From Saccharopolyspora gloriosae (GTDB lineage Bacteria > Actinomycetota > Actinomycetes > Mycobacteriales > Pseudonocardiaceae), in NCBI RefSeq assembly GCF_022828475.1, contig NZ_CP059557.1:3333470-3397469 (forward strand): a DNA stretch of 64,000 nucleotides, given 5' to 3'. The notes under the pieces were generated by a model. It saw only the letters and a list, made by a program, of their open reading frames with translations. It was not told where the DNA came from and ran no database searches. Of the stretch, positions 43,914-60,983 are shown one piece after another; the stretch's first letter is position 1, and every line of letters starts with the position of its first letter. A program made the translations under genes and the position numbers.

Positions 43914-44552
43914 ATGACCAGCGCGGCGCTGTCCGGTTTTGTGCTGGTGGCGATTCTGGGAGTTATCACGCCGGGGTTGGACACGATGCTCGTCCTCAGA
44001 CAGGCACTCCTCGGGGGGCGTTGGAACGGTTTGGCTTCGGCCGTCGGGATTACCTTGGGATGCCTGGTTTGGGGTTCGGCGAGCGTCGTCGGCCTGACCG
44101 CCTTGATTACGGCATCCGAAGTCGCCTACAACGTGGTGCGCATCGCCGGTGCCGTGTACCTGATTTGGTTGGGCGGGTCCGCGCTCTGGAAGTCGTTGCT
44201 GCGCAATAGGGCGGGAAATGGCTCGGAGCAGGATTGGTCAGCTGGAAACGACGCGATCACCCGCCGCTCGGCGCTGCGTTCGGGCCTCGTCACGAACTTG
44301 CTCAATCCCAAAGTGGGCGTGTTCTACATGAGCCTGTTGCCGCAGTTCATCCCCATGAACTCGAACTCCGCTCTGTGGGGCGGACTGCTCGTGGCGATCC
44401 ACCTGTCCATCTACCTGATTTGGCTGCCGAGCCTGGTGTGGGTGGCCGACCATGCGCGATCCGTTCTCATTCGACCGAAGGTGCGTCGCTGGATGGACCG
44501 GGCGACGGCCGGCGTCCTGCTGGGGCTGGGTCTCAAGATGGCGATCGAGTAG
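43914..44552 (+). CDS. LysE/RhtB-family exporter
   Basis: The 212-residue protein has six predicted membrane segments and the family motif VITPGLDTMLVLRQALLGGR, followed by GITLGCLVWG and NLLNPKVGVFYMSLLPQF. The family exports amino acids and analogues. ATG 43914 puts the first helix at the N-terminus as usual; ATG 43836 would add 26 residues. Its codon use is less GC-rich than that of its neighbours. A role in exporting a product of the nearby cluster is possible but unsupported. Confidence 0.87.
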   Translation: MTSAALSGFVLVAILGVITPGLDTMLVLRQALLGGRWNGLASAVGITLGCLVWGSASVVGLTALITASEVAYNVVRIAGAVYLIWLGGSALWKSLLRNRAGNGSEQDWSAGNDAITRRSALRSGLVTNLLNPKVGVFYMSLLPQFIPMNSNSALWGGLLVAIHLSIYLIWLPSLVWVADHARSVLIRPKVRRWMDRATAGVLLGLGLKMAIE

Positions 44553-44755
44553 AGCGGCTGCGCACCGGCCCGCCGAGAACCCGGCGGGCCGACCGGTCGT
44601 GCCGTGCGCGTGCGAGGCGTCCGCGTGGGACGACCGCCGCGCAGGACGACGGCCGTGCGTGGAGCACGGGTCGCGCTCGCCGATCTTCTCCCGTCACCGG
44701 TCGTCGGGAGAACGCGATGGCCGGGCGTGCGGGTTTCGCGAGTTCTGAGGGGAGA

Positions 44756-45466
44756 TCAGGTCAAGACCGCGCGGGAGTCGTCCGAGTCGAGCACCTGCGG
44801 GAATGACGCAGGTCCGAAGAACTTCTCCAAGCCGGAGTGCAGCTCGGTGATGAACGACTTCGTGGCGGTCTCATCGACCTGGTCGAGGAGTTCGACGACG
44901 ATGATGGCATTGGTGGTTTCCCGCCGAATGAGCGCTTGCGCGGCTTGCCGCCAGACGAAGTGGCGGGTGAGGATTTGGTTTCGCCACGCGTAGGCGACCT
45001 CATTCGGTTCGACGGGAACCGCTTCCGGGGCATCAAGAGGCTGGAACAGGTCGTCTTCCCGGGTGCGGCGAAGTTCGAGCTCACCTCCGCCGATGTCATC
45101 GGCGTCGAAGGCGCCGAGCGGGACGACGTGCCGCAACGACAGGGAATGAATGAAGTCGGTCAGCGGGTTCAGGCGGAGCGGCTCGGGGCTCTTGAAGGCG
45201 CGGCGCACCATGGATTCGATGGCGCAGGGGTACTTCTTTCCGTTGATTCCCAGATTGCGCAGCGCATCCCGCCACGGGGCCACGAACGGATGCTGCTGGG
45301 CGGATCCGACCGAATTCAGCTGGGCGCCCATGTCTTGCCAGCTCGCGGCCAGCAATGCGTCGATTTCGGGATTGTCGGTGGTGTTATCGATCCCGCGGAC
45401 CGCGGTGGCGACGATGCGCATGCCTGGGTTGGGCGAGAGGACATCGGCTTTGACGTCGAGAATCAC
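44756..45466 (-). CDS. B3/B4-domain protein (PheRS beta-subunit editing-domain fold)
   Basis: The 236-residue protein matches stand-alone B3/B4 domains: HPFVAPWRDALRNLGINGKK, YPCAIESMVRRAF, LNPLTDFIHSLSLRHVVPLG and a late RHFVWRQAAQALI. The same fold in phenylalanyl-tRNA synthetase clears mischarged tyrosine from tRNA(Phe); free versions are poorly characterised. GTG 45466 has no ribosome site but TAACTT lies six bases upstream, so the mRNA may be leaderless. It follows the LOG gene on the same strand by 103 bases. Confidence 0.82.
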   Translation of the reverse strand: MILDVKADVLSPNPGMRIVATAVRGIDNTTDNPEIDALLAASWQDMGAQLNSVGSAQQHPFVAPWRDALRNLGINGKKYPCAIESMVRRAFKSPEPLRLNPLTDFIHSLSLRHVVPLGAFDADDIGGGELELRRTREDDLFQPLDAPEAVPVEPNEVAYAWRNQILTRHFVWRQAAQALIRRETTNAIIVVELLDQVDETATKSFITELHSGLEKFFGPASFPQVLDSDDSRAVLT

Positions 45467-45569
45467 GTGATCAAGTTAGCAGACCCCGCCGATGCCGCCG
45501 GGGAGAATCGCGTGCGGCATGTCCGCCGCGCCGTCGGCGAACCTCGGCGAATGCGGCGCGATGCCCGAG

Positions 45570-46124
45570 TCAGGTCGTCACCGGGGCTTCGGCCTCGCAC
45601 ATGTCCAGCGCCTCGGCCACGGTGGTGGCGACCCGCAGCGCGCTGCGCCATTCGTGGCTGATGAACCCGGTTCGGTGCATCCGATCCGTCCAGGACACGA
45701 GTTCCCCGAAGTGCCCCTCGTGATCGAGCAGCACAAGCGGTTTCGAGTGCGGGACGAGCATTCGCGTCGTCCACGACTCGAAGATCTCATCGCAGGTGCC
45801 CACGCCTCCGGGAAGAGCGAGCAACGCGTCCGACCGCGTGATCATCGTGGCTTTCCGCTGACTCACCGACGGCAGCACCACCAGTTCCCCGGCGTCACGA
45901 TCGGCCTCGTGCAGCAATGCTTCCGGCACGACACCGACCGTGCGGCCCCCTGCCGCACGCGCCGCGTCGGCGACAGCGCCCATCATGGAAACGGCTTCGC
46001 CACCGGTCACGAGCGTCCAACCGCGTTCCGCGATGCCCCGCCCCGTCTCGGCCGCGAGGTCTTGGTAGGTGCGGGGGATGCTGGTGGACGCACTGCAGAA
46101 GACACACACGGATAAGGGATGCAC
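45570..46124 (-). CDS. LOG-family nucleoside 5'-monophosphate phosphoribohydrolase
   Basis: The 184-residue protein has the Rossmann-like LOG fold with VCVFCSAS, QRKATMITRSDALLALPGG and the catalytic PGGVGTCDEIFE. LOG enzymes split a base from ribose 5-phosphate. The usual GGG-x-x-G-L-M-G loop reads TGGEAVSMMG, so the base pocket may differ. GTG 46124 has AGAGGA upstream. An in-frame GTG at 46328 overlaps the adenylating-enzyme stop (GTGA) and would add a 68-residue low-complexity leader; this suggests coupling. I infer it may release nicotinate from nicotinate mononucleotide made by the adjacent nad genes. Confidence 0.85.
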   Translation of the reverse strand: MHPLSVCVFCSASTSIPRTYQDLAAETGRGIAERGWTLVTGGEAVSMMGAVADAARAAGGRTVGVVPEALLHEADRDAGELVVLPSVSQRKATMITRSDALLALPGGVGTCDEIFESWTTRMLVPHSKPLVLLDHEGHFGELVSWTDRMHRTGFISHEWRSALRVATTVAEALDMCEAEAPVTT

Positions 46125-46324
46125 GTCAGGTCCTCTCGATGGCGGCGGTGCGTCGGCGACTCCGTGCCGGTACCCGCCGCCGTGCTGTCCGGCGTAGGGC
46201 GTACCGTCTGGGGATCCAGGCTCGTTCGTCGCGCGTTTCGCCGGTGGGTGCGAGTCCGAGATCGCCACATCACCACGGGGATGCCCGCTCGGCTCGGCGG
46301 ATCGCAGCGGGTACGGATGCGGTT

Positions 46325-47989
46325 TCACGGGGAAGGGGTGGTTTGCCGCTTGGGGGAAAGCTCTTCTTGCGCAAGCCGGTCCGCGATGTCGGCTCGCAGG
46401 GCCACCTTGTCCACCTTTCCGACGCCCGTGAGCGGAAGCGCGTCGATCTCGACGAGCCGTTCCGGCAGCTTGAACCGCGCCAGGCCGTGCTGCTCCAGGA
46501 ACATGCGCAAGGCACGCAGATCGACGCCGCCGTCATCGGTCGCGGATACGGCGTAGAGGCACACCGCCTCGCCGAGCACGGCGTGCGGCATGGCGACCGC
46601 GGCGGCGGAACGGATGCTCGGGTGCCGGACTACCAGCGCTTCGAGCTCGTCGGCCGGGATCTTCTCGCCACCGCGGTTGATGACGTCTTTGACGCGGCCC
46701 ATCACGATGAAGTTGCCCGCTGGATCCATCTTCACCAGGTCTCCCGTGCGGTAGAAACCATCAGCGGTGAAGGACGCCGCAGACGCGCCCGCGTGGTATC
46801 CGGCGATCACCCCCGGGCCGCGTGCGAGCAGTTCGCCCGTTTCACCGGTCGGCACCGATTCGCCGCGCTCGTCCACGACCAGCGTTTCGTCGGCGGGTGA
46901 GGAAGGCCTGCCCTGCGTGCCGACGATCATCTCTGCGGGGTCGTCGAGCCGGGTGAAGTTCAACAGGCCCTCGCTCATCCCGTAGACCTGCTGCACTCGG
47001 CCGCCCAGGAGTGCGTGCGCGCGCTCGGCGGTGGTTTCGGACAAGCGCGACCCGCCGACCTGGAGGACGCGAAGGCTCGAGGTGTCGTACTCATCGCGTT
47101 CCGCGGCCTGCAGCCAGCGCAGCAGCACCGCGGGGGCCAGGGCGCAGTGCGTCACCCCCTCGGTCGCCACGAGCCGCAGAGCCGCCGCGGGATCGTCGGG
47201 GCCGGCGAGGACCACCCGGCCTCCGCTCGCGAGCGTGCCGAGCACCCCGGGATGCCCGAAGGCGAAGCTGTGGGTGGCGGGAAGCGCTGCCAGGTACACG
47301 GAGCTCTCGTCCAAACAGGACACTTCAGCGGCGTGTCGGATCACGTGGCCGAACGCCTCGTGCGTTCGTGGAATGGGCTTGGGCGCACCGGTCGTGCCGC
47401 TGGAGAGCAGATGCAGCGCCACATCCGAGGGTGAGCGACGCCGGGTGGCGGGGGACCGGGCAGGCTCGGCCCAGAGGGCTTCGAGGTCCACTTCGTCCGG
47501 CAGGTCGCCACCGCCCGAGACCACCAGGTTGCGCACGCAGGCGTGTCGTTGCCGAAGCCCGCGCGCCATGGCCAGGTGATCGAACCGGCGTTGCCGACGC
47601 GGCACCGCCATGATCGTGGGTCGCAACGCCGCCAGCACCGGGTCGAGTTCGTGCTCGCGCAGCGCTGGCAATGTCAGCACCGGCAGGGCGCCGACCCGCA
47701 GCAGTCCCAGCACCAGCACCAGCATCCCGATTTCGTTGGGCAGCTGGACGATCGCCGTGTCGCCGGCGCCGACGCCGAGGCGCCGCAGCCCCGACGCACA
47801 AGCCGTCGCGGTGTCGGCGAGCTCGCCTCGTGAGACCGAGCGCGATCCCTCCGTGAGCGCGGGCGCGGACCGCTGGTGTCCGCTCAAGACGAGGTCGTCC
47901 AGCAGCTCTGGTCGCCACCACCCCGCGGCGCGGTAAGCGGCCTTCCGGGAAATGGGCACGTCGTTCGTGGCGTTTCCATCGTGCGACAA
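46325..47989 (-). CDS. Aryl-acid AMP ligase (DhbE/EntE family)
   Basis: The 554-residue enzyme is full length. It has the P-loop LLSSGTTGAPKPIPRTH (196-204 core), YGMSEGLLNFTRLDD, FYRTGDLVKM, GRVKDVINRGGEKIPADE and the catalytic Lys525 in LTGVGKVDK. The body is closest in style to 2,3-dihydroxybenzoate-AMP ligases. The substrate loop reads LPATHSFAFGHPG where DhbE has LPMAHNYPLSSPG, so DhbE Asn235 and Ser240 become Ser241 and His246. A 2-hydroxybenzoate substrate is thus unlikely. It would activate an aromatic acid and load the carrier encoded 24 bases upstream. Confidence 0.9.
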   Translation of the reverse strand: MSHDGNATNDVPISRKAAYRAAGWWRPELLDDLVLSGHQRSAPALTEGSRSVSRGELADTATACASGLRRLGVGAGDTAIVQLPNEIGMLVLVLGLLRVGALPVLTLPALREHELDPVLAALRPTIMAVPRRQRRFDHLAMARGLRQRHACVRNLVVSGGGDLPDEVDLEALWAEPARSPATRRRSPSDVALHLLSSGTTGAPKPIPRTHEAFGHVIRHAAEVSCLDESSVYLAALPATHSFAFGHPGVLGTLASGGRVVLAGPDDPAAALRLVATEGVTHCALAPAVLLRWLQAAERDEYDTSSLRVLQVGGSRLSETTAERAHALLGGRVQQVYGMSEGLLNFTRLDDPAEMIVGTQGRPSSPADETLVVDERGESVPTGETGELLARGPGVIAGYHAGASAASFTADGFYRTGDLVKMDPAGNFIVMGRVKDVINRGGEKIPADELEALVVRHPSIRSAAAVAMPHAVLGEAVCLYAVSATDDGGVDLRALRMFLEQHGLARFKLPERLVEIDALPLTGVGKVDKVALRADIADRLAQEELSPKRQTTPSP

Positions 47990-48013
47990 CGGATCTCCCG
48001 TGGCGTCGGGGCC

Positions 48014-48250
48014 TCAGTGGTCGGGCAGCGAGTCGGCCAGCTCGGCGACCGTGTAGTCGTGGGAGTCCCACAAGTCCACGTTGAACACCGAGCGTTCGCG
48101 GAGTTCGATCTCCAGCTGTGCGGTTTCGGTGGAGTCGAGCCCCAGGTCGGCGCGTAGTCGGGTCTCGTGTTGTACGGCCCCGGGATCCACCCCTATAGCG
48201 GATAGAATTTCACGCGCGACAGATATTTTATCGAATGGTTCAGCTGTCAC
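48014..48250 (-). CDS. Stand-alone aryl/acyl carrier protein
   Basis: The 78-residue protein is a four-helix carrier with the phosphopantetheine Ser40 in ADLGLDSTETAQLEIEL. It is first in the leftward arm of the cluster, ahead of the aryl-acid ligase gene, and is the ligase's likely partner. It needs a phosphopantetheinyl transferase encoded elsewhere. Confidence 0.88.
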   Translation of the reverse strand: MTAEPFDKISVAREILSAIGVDPGAVQHETRLRADLGLDSTETAQLEIELRERSVFNVDLWDSHDYTVAELADSLPDH

Positions 48251-48650
48251 GAGTATTCACGATAGACACGTTGTGCGCGGCCGCGCAATCGTTCGTAGAG
48301 CGCGTGTTCCGAGCGAGAAATAGTGGATCTCCGGCGGAACTGGGCGGGTTCACCGATTTGGAGGAGTTGGCGGTCAGCGAGCCGGTGGTACGGTACGAGC
48401 GTCTTCATTCGGGGAGCGATCCTCCCTGGGGGGACTGGGGCTTTCTGGGGTTCTTCTGCAGGCCGAGCTCGGGTTGTGACCCGACGTGTCGGCATGCTCG
48501 GTGTGCCTGAACGGTTGTCAATCGGAGTGCGAGCGCATGGCGTCCCGGCAATGGGGGCGGTGAGTTCTGCGCGCTGAACCGCCGTTGGCTCATTACTGAA
48601 GTTCACCGTGTGGTAATGGCCTGTTCGCGCCTGCAGGAAGGTGTCTGAGG
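48251..48650. promoter_or_regulatory. Divergent control region of the biosynthetic cluster
   Basis: This 400-base gap separates the leftward carrier/ligase arm from the rightward nad/PKS arm. Its left part (48195-48270 into the carrier start) is notably A/T-rich (GACAGATATTTTATCGAATGG). GAAGG and TGAGG precede the nadA ATG. No gene is supported and no local regulator gene is present in the cluster. Confidence 0.55.
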
Positions 48651-49664
48651 ATGAAAATCTCCGAACCCGTCGATGCGCTGACGCCGTATTCCGGCGTGGA
48701 GCCTGACGCTTCCTGGCGCGACGAGGTGCACGAGCTGGCGGAGCAGCGTGACGCGATCATCCTGGCGCACAATTACCAGGTTCCGGCAATTCAAGACGTC
48801 GCCCATCACACGGGTGACTCCTTGGCTTTGAGTCGGATCGCGGCGACGTGCGACGCGTCAACGATTATTTTCTGCGGTGTCCACTTCATGGCAGAGACCG
48901 CAAAAATTCTCGCGCCCGAGAAGACCGTTCTCATTCCGGACGCCAGAGCGGGCTGCTCGTTGGCCGACTCGATTACGGGAGCGGATCTGCGCGAGTGGAA
49001 GAGTCTGCATCCCGGCGCGGTCGTCGTATCTTATGTGAACACCACGGCCGAGGTCAAAGCAGAGACCGATGTCTGCTGCACGTCCTCCAATGCGGTCGAC
49101 GTGGTGAACTCCATCCCGCCCGGCCGCGGCGTGCTGTTCTGCCCGGACCAGTTCCTCGGCGCCCACGTCAAACGGCGGACGGGCAGGGATGATCTGTACA
49201 TCTGGGCGGGCGAATGCCATGTGCACGCCGGGATCAATGGTCCGGAATTGGCCGGCCGAGCAGCGGAGAACCCCGACGCCGACCTGTTCATCCACCCGGA
49301 GTGCGGTTGCGCGACGTCGGCCCTTTACCTCGCGGGTGAGGGGATCGTGCCGAGCGAGAAGGTCAAGATCCTCTCGACCGGCGACATGGTCGACCAGGCC
49401 CGGACGACCAACGCCAAGCGGGTGCTGGTCGCCACCGAGGTCGGCATGCTGCACCAGCTGCGGAAGGCGGCGCCGGAGATCGAGTTCGCCGCGGTGAACG
49501 AACGGGCGTCGTGCCGGTACATGAAGATGATCACCCCGGCGGCGTTGTTGCGCGGACTGCGCGAGGGCGAAGACGAGGTGCTCCTCGACCTGGAGGTCGC
49601 GAAGCGGGCGAGGGGCGCCGTCCAGCGGATGATCGAGATCGGCCGGCCGGGAGGCGGCGAATGA
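48651..49664 (+). CDS. nadA: Quinolinate synthase A
   Basis: The 337-residue protein has [20 protein letters not shown], the cluster-ligand cysteine regions [23 protein letters not shown], and [17 protein letters not shown] with STGDM. It condenses iminoaspartate with dihydroxyacetone phosphate to quinolinate with a [4Fe-4S] cluster. Its stop overlaps nadB (ATGA). The first third is less GC-rich than the rest. Confidence 0.95.
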
Positions 49665-51265
49665 CCTGGTCCTGGGAGACCGGCGTCGACCTGGTGATCG
49701 TGGGCAGCGGAGTCGCCGGGCTCACCGCGGCTGAGCGCGCGGTGCGCCTGGGTTTGAGCGTCGCCGTCCTCACCAAGAGCGCCGTCGACGACTGCAACAC
49801 GCAATGGGCGCAGGGGGGAGTCGCGGCGGTGTTGCCCGACCAGCGTGACCCCGGGGACTCCGTCGCCGCGCACGTGGCAGACACGTTGCTGGCCGGAGCC
49901 GGCCTGTGCGAGCCGGAGTCGGTCGGTTCGATCCTGGCCGCCGGACCAGCCGCGCTCACCCGGCTGCGCGCGCGAGGTGCGCGGTTCGACTTGACGGAAC
50001 GCAACGTCTTGGCCCGCACCCGCGAGGGCGGCCACCGCGCGGCGAGGATCGTGCGTGCAGGTGGAGATGCGACCGGCGCCGAACTGGAGCGCGCCTTGTT
50101 CGCGGCCGCTGTCGACGCCGGGCCTGCGGTGCTCGAAGGGCACCTGGTCACCGAGATCGCGCTGGCCGGTGACCGGTCCGTCGCCGGAGTGCGCCTGCTC
50201 GACCAGGAAGGGCGTCCCGCGCTGCTGCGCGCCCCGGCCGTGTTGCTGGCTACCGGGGGTCTCGGCCAGGCGTACCGGGCGACGTCGAACCCCGCGGTGG
50301 CGACCGGCGACGGATTGGCGCTGGCGCTGCGGGCGGGAGCGACCGCCTCCGACCTCGAGTTCGTCCAGTTCCACCCGACGGTCCTCTACACCGGACCGCA
50401 CGCCAGCGGCCGTTGTCCGTTGATCACCGAGGCCGTGCGTGGTGAGGGCGCCGTGCTGATCGACGCCGGCGGAGCCGAGGTGATGGACGGGGTGCACGAG
50501 CTCGGTGACCTCGCACCTCGCGACGTCGTGTCCGCGGCGATCACTCGACATGTGCGCACGGCCCCCGGCGGGGTGGACGATCACGTCTTCCTCGACGCCA
50601 CCGGGATCGCCGGTTTCGCCGAGAGGTTTCCGACCGTGCACGCGGCATGCCGCACCGCCGGGTTGGATCCGGTGCGCGATCCCATCCCGGTCGCGCCCGC
50701 CGCGCACTACCACTGCGGCGGCGTTGTCACCGATGCCATGGGGCGCACGGACGTGCCAGGTCTTTACGCGGCCGGTGAAGTGGCTCGCACCGGGCTCCAC
50801 GGAGCGAATCGGCTGGCGTCGAACAGTCTGCTGGAAGGGCTGGTCGCAGGGGAGCGGGTGGCTGCCGCCGTCGCCGCGGCGCGGCGACCGGTGCTCGAAC
50901 CGGGTGGCCCGGCCGCCGAGCTGATGGTCGCCGTGGACGACCTCGCTCGATTGCGCCGTCTGATGAGCACCGAGGTGATGATCGACCGCAGCGAAGCGGG
51001 CCTGCGTGCCGTCGAGTCCTATTTGGACGGTTCGGCGACCCCGCTGATCCCGGCAACGCGGGCGGATTGGGAACGGGCCGCGCTCACGTTGGCCGCACGT
51101 GCGGTGGTCGCCGCGGCCCTACATCGCACAGAGTCGCGCGGCTGTCATACGCGGGTGGATTTTCCCCGGACCGACCGACGCTGGCGCCGCAGCGTCGCGG
51201 TCCGCCTCGACGACACCGGCCGCCTGCTCACCGATGCCCGAGCCCTGGTTGGAGACGCCAGATGA
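49661..51265 (+). CDS. nadB: L-Aspartate oxidase
   Basis: The 534-residue flavoprotein starts [19 protein letters not shown] (FAD fold) and has [37 protein letters not shown] and [17 protein letters not shown]. It oxidises aspartate to iminoaspartate for NadA. Its genes overlap nadA and nadC by four bases each. Confidence 0.95.
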
Positions 51266-52212
51266 TCGATTCGTCCACGATGCTCCGCCTCAACGCGCTC
51301 TCCGCGGCAACGGAGTCAGCTCTGGCGGACGTACGACTGCCGGTCGACGAGGTACGGCGCGTAGTTGAGACGGCTCTGGCCGAAGACCTCGCCCACGGTC
51401 CGGACGTCACCACTGAAGCGATCATTCCTGGCGACGCCACGGCTTACGCCGCCATATCGGCCCGCGAACCCGGCGTGGTCGCAGGTGTCCCCATCGCATT
51501 GGCCGTGTTCGACGCCGTGCTCGGCGCCGGCGAGTACCGGCTGGTCGACAGGGCGCAGGACGGCGCCGAAGTCGATGCCGGGGCGGACGTGCTGGTGCTG
51601 CGCGGCCCCGTCCGACGCTTGCTGACCGCGGAACGAACAGCGCTCAACCTGCTGTGCCACCTGTCCGGCATCGCCACCGCCACGGCTCGCTGGGTCGACG
51701 AGCTCGCGGGCACCGGCACTCAGGTGCGGGACTCGCGCAAGACGCTGCCAGGGCTGCGGGTGCTCGCCAAGTACGCGGTGCGCCAGGGCGGCGGCACCAA
51801 CCATCGGATGGCGTTGGGCGATGCGGTGCTGATCAAGGACAACCACGTGGCGGCGGCGGGCTCGGTCAGCGCGGCGATCACGGCCGTTCGCGAGCACGCC
51901 CCGCACTTGCCTTGGCAGGTCGAGGTCGACACCCTCGCTCAGCTCGACGAGGCGCTCGCCGCCGGGGCGCCCGAAATCATGCTGGACAACTTCACGACAG
52001 CCGACTGCGGCCGGGCCGTGGCTCGGGTCAGGGCGACCGGAAGACGGGTGCGGTTGGAGGCTTCCGGCGGAATCGGTCTTGACGTCGCTCGAACCTACGC
52101 CGAGACCGGTGTTGATTTTCTCGCCGTCGGCGGACTGACCCACTCAGTGCCCGCACTCGACCTCGGGCTCGACCTTCGAACCGGGAACGGGGGCACCTCG
52201 CATGGATGCTGA
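51262..52212 (+). CDS. nadC: Nicotinate-nucleotide pyrophosphorylase (quinolinate phosphoribosyltransferase)
   Basis: The 316-residue protein has GTQVRDSRKTLPGLRVLAKY, QGGGTNHRMALGDAVLIKDN, EVDTLAQLDEAL, IMLDNF and LEASGGIGLDVARTYAETG, the full set of QPRTase motifs. It makes nicotinate mononucleotide from quinolinate and PRPP, releasing CO2. The last 11 bases overlap the PKS gene, which ties NAD-precursor synthesis to the cluster. Confidence 0.95.
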   Translation: MIDSSTMLRLNALSAATESALADVRLPVDEVRRVVETALAEDLAHGPDVTTEAIIPGDATAYAAISAREPGVVAGVPIALAVFDAVLGAGEYRLVDRAQDGAEVDAGADVLVLRGPVRRLLTAERTALNLLCHLSGIATATARWVDELAGTGTQVRDSRKTLPGLRVLAKYAVRQGGGTNHRMALGDAVLIKDNHVAAAGSVSAAITAVREHAPHLPWQVEVDTLAQLDEALAAGAPEIMLDNFTTADCGRAVARVRATGRRVRLEASGGIGLDVARTYAETGVDFLAVGGLTHSVPALDLGLDLRTGNGGTSHGC

Positions 52213-55200
52213 CGACGCCGCACACCTCGCAGGGCACATCGCCGTGGTCGGGATCGCGTGCCGGTTCCCAGGCGCTTCCACACCGGACGAGTTCTGGGAC
52301 GTGATCCGGGGAGGTCGCGAGCCCGTCACCTTCTTCACCGAGGCGGAGCTGAGGTCCGCGGGCACCCCGGAACGGATGCTGACCGATCCGGATTACGTGC
52401 CCGCGCAAGGCACCATCGACGACGAGGATCAGTTCGACGCCGAGTTCTTCGGCATCAACCCGGTTGAGGCCGGGATGATGGATCCGCAACACCGGCTCCT
52501 GCTGGAATCAGCCTGGACGGCGCTGGAGAACGCGGGTCATGATCCGCACCGCGTCCCGGGGCCGGTCGGTGTGTTCGCCGGTGCGTACCGCAACGACCAC
52601 CTGGGCCTGGTCGACACACCGGACGAGGCGACGGCGTTCGCCCGCAACATCGCCAACGAGACCGACTACCTCGCAACGCGGGTGTCCTACAAGCTCAACC
52701 TGCACGGCCCCGCGGTCACCGTGCAGACCGCCTGCTCCACCTCACTGGTCGCCGTGCACCTGGCGTGCCAATCGTTGCGCACCGGGGAATCGCGCACGGC
52801 GCTGGCCGGCGGAGTCACCCTGCGTTCCGGACAGCCGAGGGGCTATCTGTACCAGCGCGGCGGCATCTTGTCGCCGGACGGTCACTGCAGGCCGTTCGAC
52901 GCCGATGCCGAAGGCACGGTCATCGGCGACGGCGTCGGAATGGTCGTGCTCAAGCGGCTCTCCGACGCGATCGCCGACGGCGATACCGTGCACGCGCTGG
53001 TGCTCGGGTCCGCCGCGGGCAACGACGGCGCCGAGCGGGTGGGCTTCACCGCGCCCGGTGTCGCAGGGCAGGCGAGAGTGATCGGTGCGGCCTTGCGCGC
53101 GGCGCGAGTGCAGCCGTCGTCACTGGGCTACGTCGAGACCCACGGCAGCGGTACGGCGCTCGGTGATCGCATCGAAGTGGACGCACTGACCAGGGCCTTC
53201 AAGGAGCGGGGCTGGACCAGCGGAACCTGCCGGATCGGCTCGGTCAAATCCAACATCGGACACACCCACGCCGCGTCGGGCATCGCCGGTTTCATCAAGA
53301 CCGTGCTGTCGCTGCGGCACCGCACCATTGCGCCGACCCTGCACTTCCGCGACCCGAACCCGCGCATCGATTGGGCGTCCACGCCGTTTCGGGTCGCTGT
53401 TGAGGAGAGCCGGTGGGATCAAGGTGCCGCCCCGCTGCGCGCCGGAGTCAGTTCGTTCGGACTGGGCGGTACCGGTGTGCACGTCGTCCTCCAGGAAGCA
53501 CCCCTGCCTCGGCCCACTGACGACACCGGCACCCCGCAGGTGTTGCCGTTGTCCGCACGTTCTCCGGAGGCGTTGCACAGCGCGCGCTCCCGACTCGCCG
53601 AGCACTTCGGGGAAGATCGCGGGCAGCGGCTCGCCGACGTCGCCTACACGTTGCAGGAAGGACGGACCCCGTTCGAACACCGGCTCGCCGTCGTCGGCCC
53701 CGATCCGGTGCGCGCGTTGCGGGACGACGACCCGGCGAAGGTGCTGCACGGCACGATCAGCGGCAAATCCCCCTCGGTCACCTTCCTGTTCCCCGGCCTC
53801 GGCGACCAGTATCCCGGCATGGGGCGTGGCCTGTTCGAGACCGAACCGGTGTTCGCCGCCGCGCTCCAGGAATGCGACCGGCTCATGCGCAGGCACAACA
53901 GATCACTGCTGGCGTCGCTCTACCCCGCTGACACCGCCACGCCCGCGACGTCGAGAACGGGCCTGATGCGGATGCTCGGGCGCGGAACGGACGGGCCTGA
54001 GCTGCGTGAGACCGGGCTCGCCCAGCCGACCGTGTTCGCCGTCGAATACGCGCTCGCGAAATTGTGGTCGAGCCGCGGGGTGCGGCCCGATGCTCTGATC
54101 GGCTACAGCCTCGGCGAGTACGTGGCCGCCTGCGTCGCGGGAGTGCTGGACCTGGACGACGCGATCGCGCTGGTGTGCGCCCGGGCGGACCTGATCGCAG
54201 GGTTGCCGCCCGGCGCGATGCTCGCCGTGCCGTTGCCGTCGACGGCAATCGCAGAGCATCTCGGTGATGATCTTTCGCTGGCGGCGGTCAACGGTCCCGA
54301 GCTGTGCGTCGTGGCCGGTCCGACGGCTGCGGTGGAGGACTTGGCCGCGCGGCTGGCGGAACAGGAGGTCGCCACTCGGCCGCTGCTGACCTCGCACGCG
54401 TTCCACTCGCACATGATGGAGCCCATCGTCGAGCAATTCACCGAACTGGCCGGCTCGATCACCTTCCACGCGCCGAAGATTCCCTATGCCTCGAACGTCA
54501 CCGGTGACCGGATCACCGACGTCGACGCCACGGACCCGTCGTATTACGCCCGTCACCTGCGGCAACCGGTGCGGTTCATCGAAGGTCTGCACGCCGTGCG
54601 CGGCGAAGTGCTCCTGGAAGTCGGACCTGGCCGGGCATTGGGCGGTCTGGCCATGCAGAACCGGGATCCGGAGCAGAACGTGCGAGCGTTCGCCAGCCTC
54701 CCCGCCGGCTTTGATGCTCGACCGGCCGCGGAGGTGCTCGCCACCGCCACCGCGGAGCTGTGGCTGGCAGGAGTCCCCATCGACTGGTCGGCCACGCACC
54801 ACCACCGACGTCGCCGAGTGCCCGTGCCGGCTTACCCGTTCCAAGGCAGGCGGTACGGCGTCTCCGCGCCTGCCCCACGCCGTTCGCCCGCCGATTCGGT
54901 ACCCGAGCTCGGCCGCAAACCGGACCTGGCTGACTGGGTATCGGTGCCCGTGTGGCAGCCCGCCGTCCTCGGCGAAGTCGTTGCGCGGGAACCGAAGAAG
55001 GTCCTGCTGTTCGCCGGTGACTCGGCACTGTCCGGCGAGCTGGCTGCGGGCCTGGCCCAGTACGGCGACGACGTCGTGGTCGTACCTCCGGGCACCGACG
55101 ACTTCCGGTCGCTGATCGAGCCACAGTGGACGCCCGAGCTGCTGGTGCACGCGCGACTCGTGACCGCAGAACCCGTTTCCCCTGACGAGGCGCAGCGTCT

Positions 55201-57460
55201 CGGCTTGCACGGTCTGATCGCGGTGGCGAAGTCCCTGACCGTCCATGATGGACTGGACGTCGCGGTTCTGACCAGCAATGCGCACCCCGTCGGCCACGGG
55301 GCCGCCCAGCCCGTCAAGGCCACCGCGCTCGGCCCGTGCTTGGTGTGGCCGCTGGAGGTGCCAGGCGTGCGCTGCCGGGCGATCGACGTCGGCCCGCACG
55401 ACCGCGTCGCGTTGCTCGCCGAGCTCACCGCGCAATGGCCGGACGATGAGCAGGTCGCGCTGCGTGGCGGGCGCCGGTGGCGACGGGAACGGCAGCCGCT
55501 CAAGCTCACCGCGGGCAATGCCTCCCTGCTGCGGCGCGGCGGGGTGTACCTGATCACCGGCGGTACCGGCGGGATCGGACGCACCTTGGCCAGGTACCTG
55601 ATCGATGAGTGGAAAGCGACGGTGGTGCTCGCCAGTCGTTCAGGGACTTCCCCTGAGGTGCCGGAAGGAGCCGAGACGCATCAGGTCGACGTGACCGACG
55701 GAGCGCAGGTGCGGGAACTGGTGCGCGACGTAGTCGCCCGGCACGGGGCGTTGCACGGTGTAGTGCACGCTGCGGGCGTGCCCGGCGGTGGGCTGATGGC
55801 CTTGAAGGACCCGGACGCCGCCGACGTCGTGCTGGCGCCGAAGGTGGCAGGAACGCTCGCGTTGCAAGCGGCATGTGCCGACGTCGGCCTGGACTTCCTC
55901 GTGCTGTGCTCGTCGCTCATCGCGGTCACCGGCGGAGCCGGGCAAGTCGATTACAGCGCGGCGAACGCGTTTCTCGAGGCAGCGGCGGAGGAAGCCGCAG
56001 CGACCGGAGGCCCGCTCACCCTCACCGTCGACTGGGATGCCTGGCGCGAGGTCGGAATGTCGGTCGACGCCGTGGGGCCGCGACCGCACCCGACAGGGCA
56101 TCCCTTGTTGACCCACCGGATCTCGGACTCCATGTATTCCGGTCGGTTCAGCGCCCGGAGCAGCTGGCTGGTCGACGAGCACCGCATGCTCGACATGCCG
56201 GTCGTGCCCGGTGCGGGGCATCTGGAGCTGGTACGGGCCGCCGTGGCCGATTCCCACGGCCAGGACCCGGTCGGGTACGGCGACATCACGTTCTACACGC
56301 CGGTCGTGGCCGGTGAGCAGGAATCGACAGAGGTGCGGGTCGTGCTCGGAGAACTCGACGAGACGACCGGCGAGGTCCCGTTCGACGTGGTCAGCGCCTA
56401 CACCGACGCAGCGGGCGCGTCCTGCTGGCAGCGCAACTCGGCGGGCACGGCTCACCTGGGTGAGCCGGCACCTGCTCCGGTCCACGACCTGGACGCCCTC
56501 GTCCACGGCGCCTCCCTCGTGGTGCCCGACGACCTCGGTGCGGTCGGCCCGATGAGCTTCGGCCCTCGCTCCCGGTGCCTGGTGTCCATGCGCGGTGGCG
56601 ATCGGGAATTCGCCGCGCTGCTCCGGCTCCCGGACGAGTTCGCGCACGAGACCCACGAGCTGCCGCTGCACCCGTCGCTGCTGGACATCGCCACCGCGTT
56701 CGTGGGGCTGTTCACCGCGGAGGAATTCCGGATACCGCTTTCCTACGGCCGGGTGAAGGTGTCGGGACCCTTGCGCGGTGAGGTCCTCAGCCACCAGCTG
56801 CATCGAGTGCGGGACGACGGCGAACGGCAGACGGTGAGCGCCGACCTGACCGTCATGGCGACCGACGGTACGGAGCTGCTGCGCATCGAGAACTTCGTGC
56901 TGAAGAAGGCGGGTGATCTGCGCCGGCGTCTCGTCGGCGCTCGCGACGGTGTGCCGCAGGAGGTCGTGCCGTACGCACTGCCGCGGACGGGCGGTCCTGC
57001 GGTGGGTTTCCTGAGCCAGCAGCTCGCCGAAGGCATCGAACCAGCCGAGGGCGTCGAGGTGTTCGAGCGATTGCTCGCCCATCGCGTCTCGCCGGTCGCC
57101 ACGGTGTGCACCCAGGACCTGGCGGCGGTGCTGGCCCAGGCCAGGCGGACGGTGCAGGTCCCGGAAGTGAGCACGACGGCACTCACTGCTCGGCACCCGA
57201 GGCCCCGGCTGGGAACGCCGTACGTCGAGCCGAGCGACGACCTGTGCCGCTCCCTGGCCGAGTTGTGGCAGGACCTGCTGGGCATGGAATCGGTCGGCAT
57301 GCACGACGACTTCTTCGACCTCGGAGGGCACTCGTTGCTGGGCATCCAGCTCGCCGCCCGGTTGCGCAACGAATTCGGGCTCGACGTGCCGCTGGACTCT
57401 CTGTTCGAAGGGCTCACCGTCGCGCGGTTACGGGATCGGGTGGGCGCTTCGTCCACGTGA
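52202..57460 (+). CDS. One-module type I polyketide synthase (KS-AT-KR-DH-ACP)
   Basis: The 1,752-residue protein has a ketosynthase (about 10-430; Cys178 in TACSTSL, His314, His354), an acyltransferase (about 510-830; Ser636 in GYSLGE, HAFH at 732-735), a ketoreductase with its structural half (about 900-1290; ITGGTGGIG from 1118, Ser1238, Tyr1251, Asn1255), a dehydratase-like domain (about 1300-1560; His1327, Asp1495) and an ACP (Ser1711 in DLGGHSLLG). KR before DH is not the usual modular order. The DH motif reads H-x3-D-x4-P where H-x3-G-x4-P is expected. There is no thioesterase. It starts inside nadC. Confidence 0.92.
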   Translation: MDADDAAHLAGHIAVVGIACRFPGASTPDEFWDVIRGGREPVTFFTEAELRSAGTPERMLTDPDYVPAQGTIDDEDQFDAEFFGINPVEAGMMDPQHRLLLESAWTALENAGHDPHRVPGPVGVFAGAYRNDHLGLVDTPDEATAFARNIANETDYLATRVSYKLNLHGPAVTVQTACSTSLVAVHLACQSLRTGESRTALAGGVTLRSGQPRGYLYQRGGILSPDGHCRPFDADAEGTVIGDGVGMVVLKRLSDAIADGDTVHALVLGSAAGNDGAERVGFTAPGVAGQARVIGAALRAARVQPSSLGYVETHGSGTALGDRIEVDALTRAFKERGWTSGTCRIGSVKSNIGHTHAASGIAGFIKTVLSLRHRTIAPTLHFRDPNPRIDWASTPFRVAVEESRWDQGAAPLRAGVSSFGLGGTGVHVVLQEAPLPRPTDDTGTPQVLPLSARSPEALHSARSRLAEHFGEDRGQRLADVAYTLQEGRTPFEHRLAVVGPDPVRALRDDDPAKVLHGTISGKSPSVTFLFPGLGDQYPGMGRGLFETEPVFAAALQECDRLMRRHNRSLLASLYPADTATPATSRTGLMRMLGRGTDGPELRETGLAQPTVFAVEYALAKLWSSRGVRPDALIGYSLGEYVAACVAGVLDLDDAIALVCARADLIAGLPPGAMLAVPLPSTAIAEHLGDDLSLAAVNGPELCVVAGPTAAVEDLAARLAEQEVATRPLLTSHAFHSHMMEPIVEQFTELAGSITFHAPKIPYASNVTGDRITDVDATDPSYYARHLRQPVRFIEGLHAVRGEVLLEVGPGRALGGLAMQNRDPEQNVRAFASLPAGFDARPAAEVLATATAELWLAGVPIDWSATHHHRRRRVPVPAYPFQGRRYGVSAPAPRRSPADSVPELGRKPDLADWVSVPVWQPAVLGEVVAREPKKVLLFAGDSALSGELAAGLAQYGDDVVVVPPGTDDFRSLIEPQWTPELLVHARLVTAEPVSPDEAQRLGLHGLIAVAKSLTVHDGLDVAVLTSNAHPVGHGAAQPVKATALGPCLVWPLEVPGVRCRAIDVGPHDRVALLAELTAQWPDDEQVALRGGRRWRRERQPLKLTAGNASLLRRGGVYLITGGTGGIGRTLARYLIDEWKATVVLASRSGTSPEVPEGAETHQVDVTDGAQVRELVRDVVARHGALHGVVHAAGVPGGGLMALKDPDAADVVLAPKVAGTLALQAACADVGLDFLVLCSSLIAVTGGAGQVDYSAANAFLEAAAEEAAATGGPLTLTVDWDAWREVGMSVDAVGPRPHPTGHPLLTHRISDSMYSGRFSARSSWLVDEHRMLDMPVVPGAGHLELVRAAVADSHGQDPVGYGDITFYTPVVAGEQESTEVRVVLGELDETTGEVPFDVVSAYTDAAGASCWQRNSAGTAHLGEPAPAPVHDLDALVHGASLVVPDDLGAVGPMSFGPRSRCLVSMRGGDREFAALLRLPDEFAHETHELPLHPSLLDIATAFVGLFTAEEFRIPLSYGRVKVSGPLRGEVLSHQLHRVRDDGERQTVSADLTVMATDGTELLRIENFVLKKAGDLRRRLVGARDGVPQEVVPYALPRTGGPAVGFLSQQLAEGIEPAEGVEVFERLLAHRVSPVATVCTQDLAAVLAQARRTVQVPEVSTTALTARHPRPRLGTPYVEPSDDLCRSLAELWQDLLGMESVGMHDDFFDLGGHSLLGIQLAARLRNEFGLDVPLDSLFEGLTVARLRDRVGASST

Positions 57461-57496
57461 AACCGGCCGCCATAGTTCGTCCACTGTGGAGGTGCA

Positions 57497-58381
57497 ATGT
57501 CCGGCTTTTCCCAGATCGGCGTCGCCGGGGCTGGTGTCATGGGCGCCGAGGTCGCTCAGGTCGCGGCCACGGCCGGCCACGAGGTCGTGCTGCTCGACCT
57601 CTCCGACGAGGTGCTGAACAGGGCGCGATCCGGCATCCGATCCAATCTGCGGTTTCAGCGGATGTTCGCCGAGGGCGCTCCCGCCGTGAACGCGGAGGAA
57701 GTTCTCGGGCGGATCACCTTCACCACCTCGGCAGCGGATTTCGCCGAGGTCGAGATCGTCATCGAGAACATCACCGAAAAATGGGATGCGAAGGAGGATC
57801 TCTACCGACGTCTCGACCGGATTTGCGCCGATTCGACCGTGTTCGCGGTGAACACCTCGGTTATTCCGATCACCAAGGTCGGTGCGGTGACCGGCCGGAT
57901 GGACCGGGTCATCGGAACGCACTTCATGAACCCGGTGTCACGCAAGCCCACCGTCGAGGTCATTCGTGGACACCACACCAGCGACGAAACCGTTTCCGTG
58001 ACGCTGGGCATGCTGGAGTCGCTCGGCAAACGCGGCATCGTGGTGCAGGACTCGCCCGGATTCGTCTCCAACCGAGTGCTGATGCTCACCGTCAACGAGG
58101 CGATCTTCCTGCTGCATGAAGGAGTAGCCACCGCCGAGCAGGTCGATGACATCTTCGTCACCTGCTTCGGGCACGCGATGGGGCCGCTGGCGACCGCCGA
58201 CCTGATCGGGCTGGACACGATCCTGTACTCGATCGAGGGGCTCTACGAGCACTTCAACGACTCGAAGTACCGGCCATGCCCGCTGTTGCGGCGGATGGTC
58301 GATGCCGGACTGCACGGATGCAAGAACGGCGCCGGGTTCTTTCAATACGCCAACAGCGGCTCTCGGAAGGGAATCTCGTGA
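57497..58381 (+). CDS. 3-Hydroxyacyl-CoA dehydrogenase-like enzyme (FkbK type)
   Basis: The 294-residue protein has the NAD fold GVAGAGVMGAEVAQVAATAG and the catalytic His region GTHFMNPVSRKPTVEVIRG, then QDSPGFVSNRVLMLTVNEAI. Next to an ACP, an acyl-CoA dehydrogenase and an FkbH homologue it fits the FkbK role: oxidation of glyceryl-ACP toward the malonyl oxidation level. GGAGG precedes ATG 57497. The stop overlaps the ACP gene. Confidence 0.88.
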   Translation: MSGFSQIGVAGAGVMGAEVAQVAATAGHEVVLLDLSDEVLNRARSGIRSNLRFQRMFAEGAPAVNAEEVLGRITFTTSAADFAEVEIVIENITEKWDAKEDLYRRLDRICADSTVFAVNTSVIPITKVGAVTGRMDRVIGTHFMNPVSRKPTVEVIRGHHTSDETVSVTLGMLESLGKRGIVVQDSPGFVSNRVLMLTVNEAIFLLHEGVATAEQVDDIFVTCFGHAMGPLATADLIGLDTILYSIEGLYEHFNDSKYRPCPLLRRMVDAGLHGCKNGAGFFQYANSGSRKGIS

Positions 58382-58629
58382 CGGAGACCAAGGCGAAGGT
58401 GCGTGAGTTCCTCGGTCGCTACCTCCCCGATCAGGAGATAGCCGATGACGAGGACATGTTCAGCAGAGGTTACGCGAACTCGATGTTCGTCGTGCAGCTG
58501 GTGCTCTTCGTCGAGCAGGAGCTGGCCACTCCGGTCGACGACGATGACCTGGATTTCGACAACTTCCGCAGTGTTGATGCCATCGCGGGCTTCGTTCACG
58601 CCAAGGCGGGCCGTCCGCAACACGCCTGA
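58378..58629 (+). CDS. Dedicated acyl carrier protein (FkbJ type)
   Basis: The 83-residue carrier has the phosphopantetheine Ser in RGYANSMFVVQLVLF; an Asn-Ser-Met site with a leading Ala replaces the usual D-S-L, as in methoxymalonyl/hydroxymalonyl carriers. It is expected to hold the glyceryl-derived C3 unit while FkbK/FkbI-type enzymes oxidise it. GTG 58378 overlaps the previous stop. Confidence 0.88.
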   Translation: MTETKAKVREFLGRYLPDQEIADDEDMFSRGYANSMFVVQLVLFVEQELATPVDDDDLDFDNFRSVDAIAGFVHAKAGRPQHA

Positions 58630-58641
58630 GTTGGAGGAAAA

Positions 58642-59766
58642 ATGCCGCTCAGCGCTATCCGCGAGCAGCAGCAGACGGCCTTTCGCGAATTCGCTCGTGA
58701 AGAGGTCGAACCGCATGCCGAGGCCTGGGATCGCGACGAGACCATTCCGCTCCGGTCGATCGATGCGTTCGCCGGGAAGGGGTGGTTCGGGACGCTCATC
58801 CCGGCCGAACACGGCGGGCTGGGCCAGGACGCGGTGGCATTCGGCCTGCTCAACGAGGAGATCGGCGGTGCCTGTTCGTCGTTGCGCAGCGTCCTGACGG
58901 TGCACAGCATGGTCTCGTACGCGGTGTGCCGGTGGGGGAGCGACACGTTGCGACGGCAGTGGCTGCCGCGGCTGGCCACCGGCGAGGTGATCGGTGCGTT
59001 CTGCCTGAGTGAGGAGACCTCCGGCAACGATGCGGGTGCACTCGCCACCACCGCGGTCCACGACGGCGAGACCTTCCGGCTGACGGGGACCAAGAAGTGG
59101 ATCACCTACGGGCAGCGGTCGGACGTGTACTTGGTATTCGCCGCGTGCGACGGAAAACCGGCGGCGTTCTTGGTCGAGCGAAACCTGCCCGGAGTGGAGG
59201 TGGTGCCGGTGCGTGGCATGAGCGGCACCAGAGCCTCCATGGTCGCGGAGCTGCACCTGCACGATGTGGCGGTGCCTGCGAGTTCGCTGGTCGGGCGGGT
59301 GGGATTCGGGATCGCCGCAGTGGCCACGAGCGCGTTGGACATCGGCCGGTACAGCGTCGCCTGGGGGTGCGTCGGCATCCTCGCCGCCGCGCTGCGCACT
59401 TCCTTGCAACACGCCCACGACCGCACCAGTTTCGGCGTGCGCATCGGCGAGCACCAACTGGTGCAGCGCATGGTCGCCGACATGGCCACCGCGCACTCCG
59501 CCGCGCGCCTGTTGTGCGTCGAAGCGGGTGAACTCAAGGACGCCGGAGATCCGCGCACCGTCCACGCCACCTGGACCGCCAAGTATTTCGCCTCCTGTCA
59601 GGCCTTCCGCGCCGCTGCGGACGCCGTTCAGATTCTCGGTGCCCGAGGTTGCCTCGAGGGGCACACCGCGAATCGGCTGCTCCGTGATTCGAAGGTCATG
59701 GAGATCATCGAAGGCAGTACCCAGCTTCAGCAGATCTACCTCGCCCAGGCCGCGAGCACGTCCTGA
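58642..59766 (+). CDS. Acyl-CoA dehydrogenase-like flavoenzyme (FkbI type)
   Basis: The 374-residue protein has the acyl-CoA dehydrogenase features AFCLSEETSGNDAGALATTA, GTKKWITYGQRSDVYLVFA and a C-terminal IIEGSTQLQQIYLAQAAS. In extender-unit clusters this family oxidises the alpha position of the carrier-bound C3 chain. TTGGAGGAAAA precedes ATG 58642. Confidence 0.88.
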   Translation: MPLSAIREQQQTAFREFAREEVEPHAEAWDRDETIPLRSIDAFAGKGWFGTLIPAEHGGLGQDAVAFGLLNEEIGGACSSLRSVLTVHSMVSYAVCRWGSDTLRRQWLPRLATGEVIGAFCLSEETSGNDAGALATTAVHDGETFRLTGTKKWITYGQRSDVYLVFAACDGKPAAFLVERNLPGVEVVPVRGMSGTRASMVAELHLHDVAVPASSLVGRVGFGIAAVATSALDIGRYSVAWGCVGILAAALRTSLQHAHDRTSFGVRIGEHQLVQRMVADMATAHSAARLLCVEAGELKDAGDPRTVHATWTAKYFASCQAFRAAADAVQILGARGCLEGHTANRLLRDSKVMEIIEGSTQLQQIYLAQAASTS

Positions 59767-59790
59767 TGCCGAGCAGGAGGAGGAAGCGAG

Positions 59791-60834
59791 ATGACCGAAC
59801 AGGTCACCGACGTCAAGTCCGTCAAATGCGTGGTGTGGGACCTCGATCAGACGATCTGGGACGGGGTGCTCCTGGAAGACGGCGATGTGCGGTTGCGGCC
59901 CGGTGTTCGTCAGGTGCTCGAGGTTCTCGACGAGCGCGGGATCTTGCACTCGCTCGCCAGCCGCAACGATCCGGAAGCGGTACGAGCGAAGCTCGAGGAA
60001 TTCGGAATCGATCATTATTTCCTCCACCCGCAGATCGGATGGCACGTCAAATCGGAATCCGTGGGCAGGATCGCCGAGGCTCTCAACATCGGCACCGATG
60101 CCATCGCTTTCGTCGATGACCAGCCGTTCGAACGGGACGAAGTCGTCCATGAGCACCCGGACGTGCTGTGCGTGGACGCGGCGGAGCTGACGGATCTGCT
60201 GGTCCGGCCGGAGTTCATCCCGAGGTTCGTGACGGAGGACTCGAAGAGGCGTCGCGAGATGTACCGCGAAGACGCCCGACGCAAGATCGACGAAAAATCC
60301 TTCGCCGGCCCGCAGGAGACGTTTCTGGCGGGGCTGGACATGCGGTTCGAGATCGCCGAAGCCGGTGAAGGCGATCTGCAGCGTGCGGAGGAGCTCACCG
60401 TGCGCACGAACCAGCTGAACACCACGGGACGCACATTTTCGTACGATGAGCTGGACGCCTTTCGCCGGTCTGATGACCACCTGCTGTTGGTCGCCAGGCT
60501 GACCGACAGGTACGGGCCTTACGGCAACATCGGTCTGGCCCTGATGGACACCAGCGGACCGGGTTGGACGATTCGATTGCTGCTCATGTCGTGCCGCGTG
60601 ATGTCACGTGGGGTGGGCACGGTATTGATCAACCACATCAAGCGCCGCGCGGCGTCGGCCGGAGTGCAGCTGTCGGCGGACTTCATCTCGACCGGGCGCA
60701 ACCGGCCGATGTTGGTGTCGTTCAAGTTCAACGGATTCAGCGAGGTCGCTCGCGATGGTGCTTACGTCACCTTCAGGGCGGACTTGACCGCGATCCCGCC
60801 GGACCCCGATTACATCAAGATCCTCGTGAGCTGA
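59791..60834 (+). CDS. FkbH-type HAD-superfamily glyceryl transferase
   Basis: The 347-residue protein begins with the HAD motif KCVVWDLDQTIWDGVLLEDG (Asp17, Asp19), has AFVDDQPFERDEV, and ends with a GNAT-like domain (about 190-340; LLLMSCRVMSRGVGTVLINH). FkbH proteins take 1,3-bisphosphoglycerate, dephosphorylate it and load glyceryl on the dedicated carrier. The FkbG O-methyltransferase that would make methoxymalonyl-ACP is absent, so hydroxymalonyl-ACP is the expected extender. It is the last gene of the rightward arm. Confidence 0.92.
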   Translation: MTEQVTDVKSVKCVVWDLDQTIWDGVLLEDGDVRLRPGVRQVLEVLDERGILHSLASRNDPEAVRAKLEEFGIDHYFLHPQIGWHVKSESVGRIAEALNIGTDAIAFVDDQPFERDEVVHEHPDVLCVDAAELTDLLVRPEFIPRFVTEDSKRRREMYREDARRKIDEKSFAGPQETFLAGLDMRFEIAEAGEGDLQRAEELTVRTNQLNTTGRTFSYDELDAFRRSDDHLLLVARLTDRYGPYGNIGLALMDTSGPGWTIRLLLMSCRVMSRGVGTVLINHIKRRAASAGVQLSADFISTGRNRPMLVSFKFNGFSEVARDGAYVTFRADLTAIPPDPDYIKILVS

Positions 60835-60920
60835 TTCAGGTTCGGCCAGTGCCGCTCAGAACCAGCCGCCGTCCGACAGACCGTGACCGGCCAAGCGACC
60901 CACCGCCCACTCCGACCGGA

Positions 60921-60967
60921 GTGAACGGACCGTTCGTCCAGTCTTGTTGGACGAACGGTCCGCTCAC
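60921..60967 (+). terminator. Hairpin ending the cluster; relative of the 14239 repeats
   Basis: Nearly perfect 20-base arms GTGAACGGACCGTTCGTCCA and TGGACGAACGGTCCGCTCAC enclose GTCTTGT. It lies 86 bases after the FkbH-type gene stop and shares its stem with the repeats at 14239-14434. Confidence 0.8.
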
Positions 60968-60983
60968 TCGTTCCCGAGGGTGG

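Follow-up and report, generated by a model that had tools for sequence, protein, structure and literature searches.

A stand-alone version of the nad-linked polyketide gene set of pyridomycin-type clusters, and its probable role in forming 3-(3-pyridyl)alanine or its keto acid

Gene content and borders of the island

The window analyzed here, a stretch of 64,000 nucleotides (G000:C1:3333470-3397469) from the one-contig 6.88-Mb genome of Saccharopolyspora gloriosae, carries an island in which genes of NAD biosynthesis are linked to a one-module type I polyketide synthase (PKS). The island (43520..60918 in window positions, ~17.4 kb) is delimited by loss of synteny relative to five other genomes of the same genus and is missing from the site in 5/5 of them. 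In the alignments, homology on the left ends at 43478-43519 in all five; on the right it resumes at 61633 (G137), 63564 (G101) or 63911-63913 (G120, G079, G046), short hairpin repeats aside. We placed the right edge at a hairpin at 60919, the stretch 60970-61633 being uncertain; in G137 the flanks are separated by 1.7 kb at the corresponding site. The G+C content is 67.8% in the island, 70.7% in the left flank and 71.7% in the right flank. The following genes were found:

43836-44552, plus strand: LysE/RhtB-family amino-acid exporter (PF01810, E 6.2e-33), putatively part of the cluster
44756-45466, minus strand: stand-alone B3/4 editing-domain protein of 236 aa (PF03483, E 9.5e-16, across most of the protein)
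45570-46328, minus strand: LOG phosphoribohydrolase (TIGR00730, above cut-off)
46325-47989, minus strand: DhbE-type AMP ligase (TIGR02275, 488 bits, under the equivalog cut-off of 723.55)
48014-48250, minus strand: small acyl carrier protein (ACP) with LGLDS site (weak ACP match, E 1.8e-4; no Pfam match)
48651-49664, plus strand: NadA, quinolinate synthase (NF006878 and TIGR00550, above cut-off)
49661-51265, plus strand: NadB, L-aspartate oxidase (NF005867 and TIGR00551, above cut-off)
51262-52212, plus strand: NadC, quinolinate phosphoribosyltransferase (TIGR00078, above cut-off)
52202-57460, plus strand: one-module type I PKS (Pfam: KS-AT-KR-DH-ACP)
57497-58381, plus strand: FkbK-type 3-hydroxyacyl dehydrogenase (PF02737, PF00725)
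58378-58629, plus strand: FkbJ-type acyl carrier protein (PF00550, just over cut-off; orthologs in the full clusters described below)
58642-59766, plus strand: FkbI-type acyl-CoA dehydrogenase (family matches)
59791-60834, plus strand: FkbH, glyceryl-ACP-forming HAD-family enzyme (TIGR01686, above cut-off)

Open reading frames and family matches bore out the arrangement given in a preliminary description of this DNA: nadA/nadB and nadB/nadC overlap by 4 bases each and nadC/PKS by 11 bases, and the ACP-ligase-LOG genes diverge from nadA-nadB-nadC-PKS-fkbK-J-I-H. The system seems to reach beyond 45570-60834, to the genes for the B3/4 protein and the LysE exporter on the left.

In the PKS the DH is placed behind the KR, and no thioesterase domain was matched by Pfam. 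The active-site motifs of KS, AT, KR, DH and ACP are intact in 4/4 orthologous PKSs, and the alignment of orthologs shows that the acyltransferase retains its Ser and Arg. Homologs of FkbH, FkbI, FkbJ and FkbK are present together, and no methyltransferase, including O-methyltransferase, was matched among the island genes; hydroxymalonyl rather than methoxymalonyl is therefore the expected extender unit. The LOG protein carries PGGVGTCDE, in agreement with PGGxGTxxE, which we take to be the LOG phosphoribohydrolase motif, and scores below the cut-off of the cytokinin equivalog NF058542 (186 of 300). Its frame spans 252 aa, of which an N-terminal stretch is unaligned to the ortholog from Dactylosporangium fulvum, and the true start is more likely a GTG codon at residue 69 or 74, near 46124 or 46109.

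The same 11 genes in pyridomycin-type clusters

A database of genome contigs (84,980 species) was scanned with an alignment of the window ligase and its two best family relatives. Twelve loci were obtained, one of them a remote match (L052, 30%). NadABC and PKS genes lie beside the ligase in three of the other 11 loci, namely in Streptomyces sp. CB02923 (L045), S. novaecaesareae NRRL B-1267 (L046) and D. fulvum NRRL B-16292 (L048), while a LOG gene is present in the fetched stretch of six (L041, L045, L046, L047, L048, L049). Fetching 60-70 kb around each of the three full sets and comparing the frames revealed that all 11 genes from LOG to FkbH, including the small ACP (3/3), are orthologous and kept in identical order and orientation, which argues that the arrangement is not due to chance. 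The nadABC-PKS linkage, whose absence in all relatives would have spoken against the preliminary description, thus recurs in three other genomes. Protein identities between the window and the three clusters are highest for NadA (78-80%), followed by FkbH (67-69%), FkbK (61-63%), FkbI (60-63%), the ligase (56-60%), NadB (58-60%), NadC (55-59%), FkbJ (55-61%), the small ACP (51-58%), LOG (52-57%) and the PKS (51-52%). With the gene set defined from these three genomes as LOG-ligase-ACP divergent from nadABC-PKS-fkbKJIH, the window matches in 11/11 genes.

When the ligase was used in protein searches, no additional nad-linked locus emerged among the candidates scored. In 200 genomes of the family, in each of which no more than 7 candidates were scored, G143 (66%) and G192 (59%) ranked highest apart from the window; both have ligase and LOG, with no nad match in the fetched stretches. 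In 394 genomes of the class, with 3 candidates scored in each genome shown, only G325 and G478 besides the window went beyond 1e-165 among the candidates scored, with no nad match nearby.

The three full clusters are pyridomycin-type. In each, another aryl ligase is encoded at a distance of 19-31 kb; it has the pocket FNFTWGCPG in 3/3 and is presumably PyrA, the ligase for 3-hydroxypicolinate. In D. fulvum the genes after this ligase encode a carrier, a luciferase-like oxygenase, an amine oxidase and a non-ribosomal peptide synthetase (NRPS) containing C, A and carrier domains, two of each, and orthologs of these genes occur also in both Streptomyces clusters. A further D. fulvum NRPS contains a KR domain and a terminal thioesterase; a KR embedded in an NRPS is reportedly the mark of the pyridomycin cluster, as described by Huang et al. 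in 2011. According to the accessible part of a published study, D. fulvum produces pyridomycin, its pyr genes are joined to the chlorodactyloferrin cluster, and deletion of pyrA abolishes pyridomycin (PMC10683483). A third D. fulvum ligase, at 3.236 Mb, has a dihydroxybenzoate (DHB)-type pocket, as expected for the siderophore half of the joined cluster. Streptomyces sp. CB02923 and S. novaecaesareae presumably make pyridomycin as well.

The preliminary description, which knew of no described cluster with this gene set, did not hold in this respect, as the same set sits in the D. fulvum pyridomycin region (CP073720; L048, L062-L065), with the same 11 genes from LOG to FkbH and the same PKS domain order. 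Absent from the window, in comparison with that cluster, are the NRPS/PKS assembly line, the short-chain dehydrogenase/reductase gene after fkbH, the LOG-adjacent thioesterase and the DegT aminotransferase; the LysE and B3/4 genes are additional. There is no NRPS near the island, the nearest condensation domain in the genome being ~135 kb away. When the PyrA-like D. fulvum ligase was compared with the window's own genome (83/83 candidates scored), a second close relative, the only other close ligase in the genome, was found ~290 kb off (L125, G000:C1:3672086-3673677; matches of 57 and 62% in two frames, i.e. a split reading frame). Its pocket is HNFPMSSPG, of dihydroxybenzoate type, and not FNFTWGCPG, and its neighbors DhbA and DhbC are above their cut-offs; pocket and neighbors identify it as a dihydroxybenzoate ligase. 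A full pyridomycin cluster in this genome was rejected on these grounds. Given the lack of a nearby NRPS and the DHB-type pocket of L125, the island is not a pyridomycin cluster; it is a stand-alone version, new here, of the gene set seen inside such clusters.

An additional nadABC copy and its history

A search for a second nadABC operon, as proposed in the preliminary description, was successful: nadA-nadB-nadC recur near 1.597-1.600 Mb, 1.8 Mb away, with protein identities of 79, 60 and 61%, respectively. The island copy is therefore extra, an outcome that, like the recurrence of the nadABC-PKS linkage, favors the preliminary reading. Its history was addressed with a NadB+NadC tree of 15 rows, in which groupings were assessed by the approximately unbiased (AU) test. 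The nad copies of the pyridomycin-type clusters group with Pseudonocardiaceae rows, and descent from Streptomyces household copies was rejected (AU p 4.8e-42). For the window nad genes, an origin by copying of the host's own operon is disfavored (AU p 0.018 for grouping with the household rows of the genus).

The ligase pocket

For DhbE we take the pocket residues to be H234-N235-Y236 and S240, with N235 binding the 2-hydroxyl. H239-S240-F241 and H245 of the window ligase align with these positions; hence Ser240 is found where salicylate and DHB ligases have Asn. The four nad-cluster ligases all have Ser and His at the positions of DhbE N235 and S240, the three PyrA-like ligases Asn and Cys, and the salicylate/DHB-like rows mostly Asn with Ser or Cys (one Ala). 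The G143 and G192 ligases, which were found without the pocket pattern, also read HSF..GHPG. Judged from these residues, the pocket would disfavor 2-hydroxy-aryl acids and would be compatible with nicotinate. Conceivably, the His at the 3-hydroxyl position might lie opposite the ring nitrogen of nicotinate, which is in meta position.

A candidate pathway to 3-(3-pyridyl)alanine

From the gene content we consider it probable that the island genes specify a pathway dedicated to the synthesis of 3-(3-pyridyl)alanine or of the corresponding keto acid, all substrates as well as release and transamination being predictions. NadB and NadA would use aspartate and a C3 unit to build quinolinate, NadC would convert this to nicotinate mononucleotide, and LOG would remove ribose 5-phosphate to give free nicotinate, which the AMP ligase (a predicted nicotinate:ACP ligase) would put onto the small ACP. 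Hydroxymalonyl-ACP, the predicted AT substrate, would come from FkbH, J, I and K, and the one-module PKS would join the nicotinoyl and hydroxymalonyl units once. Action of KR and DH would lead to the enol of 3-(3-pyridyl)pyruvoyl-ACP, from which hydrolysis and transamination by enzymes encoded outside the island could yield 3-(3-pyridyl)alanine. In this scheme, the nicotinoyl carbonyl would become C-beta, and the two remaining hydroxymalonyl carbons C-alpha and the carboxyl group. Thioesterases are encoded elsewhere in the genome, one of them in a 269-aa frame.

The link to pyridomycin lends strong support to the pyridylalanine-type product predicted in the preliminary description, as the three matching loci are pyridomycin-type and pyridomycin contains 3-(3-pyridyl)-L-alanine. 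Its other units are 3-hydroxypicolinate, threonine, propionate and 2-hydroxy-3-methylpentenoate, with a single propionate extension (PMC12862043, accessible part). A separate PKS adjoining the NRPS in the pyridomycin-type clusters fits this one extension of the backbone, which leaves the nad-linked PKS and the fkb genes for pyridylalanine. Indeed, the pyridylalanine skeleton corresponds to nicotinoyl plus one reduced and dehydrated hydroxymalonyl unit, as fits these genes. A review, as far as accessible and citing Huang 2011, traces the pyridyl part of pyridomycin to aspartate (PMC5059770), in agreement with the involvement of NadB and NadA. The second nadABC operon, the intact motifs of the PKS and the ligase pocket without the Asn of salicylate and DHB ligases also speak for the route.

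Nicotinate has also been proposed as PKS starter for the pyridinopyrones (pyi pathway of Streptomyces sulphureus; PMC10268602), as we propose for the window. There, by contrast, several malonyl extensions lead to a polyene pyrone and the starter is assigned to an NRPS adenylation domain; the accessible part of the article makes no mention of nad genes. The window resembles the FkbH-K pathway of hydroxymalonyl-ACP synthesis in that FkbH, J, I and K homologs occur together, but here the unit would end up as the alpha carbon of an amino acid. A literature search, with most subscription journals outside its reach, recognized no nad-PKS route to pyridylalanine, although Huang 2011/2022 may contain such a proposal; in the literature searched, as far as accessible, no explanation is given of how bacteria form the 3-(3-pyridyl)alanine residue of pyridomycin, an antibiotic against tuberculosis. 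The comparison made here yields an 11-gene candidate pathway for it. If correct, an amino acid would be assembled by a PKS, and genes of NAD biosynthesis together with a LOG enzyme would have been recruited for starter supply.

Several observations weigh against this route. Family matches detected neither a thioesterase nor an aminotransferase gene in the island, whereas the pyridomycin-type clusters have both, the former beside LOG and the latter of the DegT family (domains named in D. fulvum). A single clade of all four cluster nad copies was not rejected (AU p 0.089), but the best tree differs in that it places the window copy beside household genes of G143/G192 (support 80/93, long branch). 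The pocket motif is not strict, since the L123 ligase, 63% identical and with no nad match nearby, reads HAF..SAPG. Finally, the contig scan relied on two short peptide patterns, one of them covering the substrate pocket, so that clusters may have been missed and that pocket favored.

The lack of an aminotransferase, thioesterase and NRPS in the island, together with the presence of NRPS genes elsewhere in the genome, would also suit a different pyridyl-C3 end product (3-pyridylpyruvate, 3-pyridyllactate or a conjugate) or a product that feeds an enzyme encoded elsewhere. This reading has a real but minority chance, as the pyridomycin clusters link the gene set to the amino acid and household aminotransferases could serve.

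Does the island release a phenylalanine mimic?

The two extra genes, for the LysE exporter and the B3/4 protein, may bear on the fate of the product. The B3/4 protein matches, in the PDB, a B3/4 protein (9mkl, E 1.6e-10) and CtdA (9f7e, E 5.6e-8, residues 51-198), as opposed to E values of 0.09-0.28 for the beta chains of phenylalanyl-tRNA synthetase. Canavanyl-tRNA-Arg, a tRNA charged with an amino-acid mimic, is deacylated by CtdA, itself a stand-alone B3/4 protein (PMC10018355, accessible part). Like the window protein, CtdA consists of a B3/4 domain without synthetase; it is encoded beside an operon for canavanine use, whereas the window gene lies in a biosynthetic island. Since pyridylalanine resembles phenylalanine, it would make sense for the island to carry an editing factor of its own and an exporter of amino acids if the free amino acid were the product. 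The island might then make and export free 3-pyridylalanine as a phenylalanine antimetabolite, with LysE acting as exporter and the B3/4 protein editing mischarged tRNA-Phe as self-protection.

We regard this possibility as tentative, its odds falling short of even. It is in line with the location of both extra genes inside the island, past the point where synteny breaks off, with the position of the B3/4 gene 103 bases after LOG on the same strand, with the activity of CtdA on a mimic and with the distance of ~135 kb to the nearest NRPS condensation domain. On the other hand, the LysE gene is on the opposite strand, an NRPS elsewhere in the genome could consume the amino acid, and neither a LysE nor a B3/4 homolog was found in the compared stretches of the three pyridomycin-type clusters. 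The B3/4 protein is also divergent (26-32% to 13 relatives); 14 other genomes among the 200 of the family have a match. None was obtained at 1e-15 in the five other genomes of the genus. We did not count a B3/4 gene located close to a related ligase in L124, as other genes separate and surround the two. If the self-protection reading is true, it shows one way in which a producer can survive its own amino-acid mimic.

Other readings of the ligase and the B3/4 protein

The nearest solved relatives of the ligase are salicylate and dihydroxybenzoate ligases, and related ligase-ACP-PKS loci occur without nad genes in six family genomes. It is conceivable on this basis that the ligase loads a benzoate-type acid and that the nad genes merely raise the NAD supply. 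We consider this improbable: the nadC and PKS genes share 11 bases, nadABC is retained with the PKS in four genomes, LOG would cut nicotinate mononucleotide rather than raise NAD, and the pocket is without the Asn mentioned above. About equally improbable is that the B3/4 protein is a hydrolase releasing pyridylpyruvate from ACP rather than an editing factor, as suggested by gene order, which is thioesterase-LOG-ligase-ACP in the pyridomycin-type clusters (thioesterase domain identified in D. fulvum) and B3/4-LOG-ligase-ACP here, given that its named relatives act on aminoacyl-tRNA and that stand-alone thioesterases are present elsewhere in the genome.

Related ligase loci and flanking sequences

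In L041 (Saccharothrix yanglingensis) and L047 (Lentzea sp. NBRC 105346) a related ligase and LOG lie beside larger modular PKS genes, with no nad genes in the fetched stretch. These loci may make polyketides primed with nicotinate, for which the household pathway would supply the nicotinate mononucleotide. Six family genomes (L030, L031, L032, L033, L034, L040) share an ACP-ligase pair close to a PKS of the type KS-AT-ACP; these PKSs are 46-49% identical to the window KS-AT, and the ligase pocket reads HGF..CPG. In L042, L043, L044 and L124, and partly in L123, ligases 60-63% identical to that of the window are accompanied by an ACP, an alpha/beta hydrolase and a conserved protein of ~420-460 aa without Pfam match; no nad or LOG match was found there.

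The left flank contains beta-ketoadipate (pca) genes (38010-43296), which are syntenic in the other genomes of the genus and lie outside the cluster. To the right of the island are two further genes:

61585-62451: LysR regulator
62466-64000: MFS transporter

Membership of the LysR-MFS genes (61.6-64 kb) in the cluster is not favored, as they occur at the same site in the cluster-less G137 (82%). A 74% match is found elsewhere in G079, and the genes are a separate variable cassette. The hairpin repeat at the right island edge (GAGTGAACGGACCGTTCGTCCA, 60919-60969) has a counterpart at 14241-14429, and 6 occurrences of its core pattern, with at most 1 mismatch, were counted in the window, where 0.42 would be expected. 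At the site of the island edge, G120 carries three copies of a 54-base form of the hairpin, which possibly represents an intergenic repeat family that marks a variable site.

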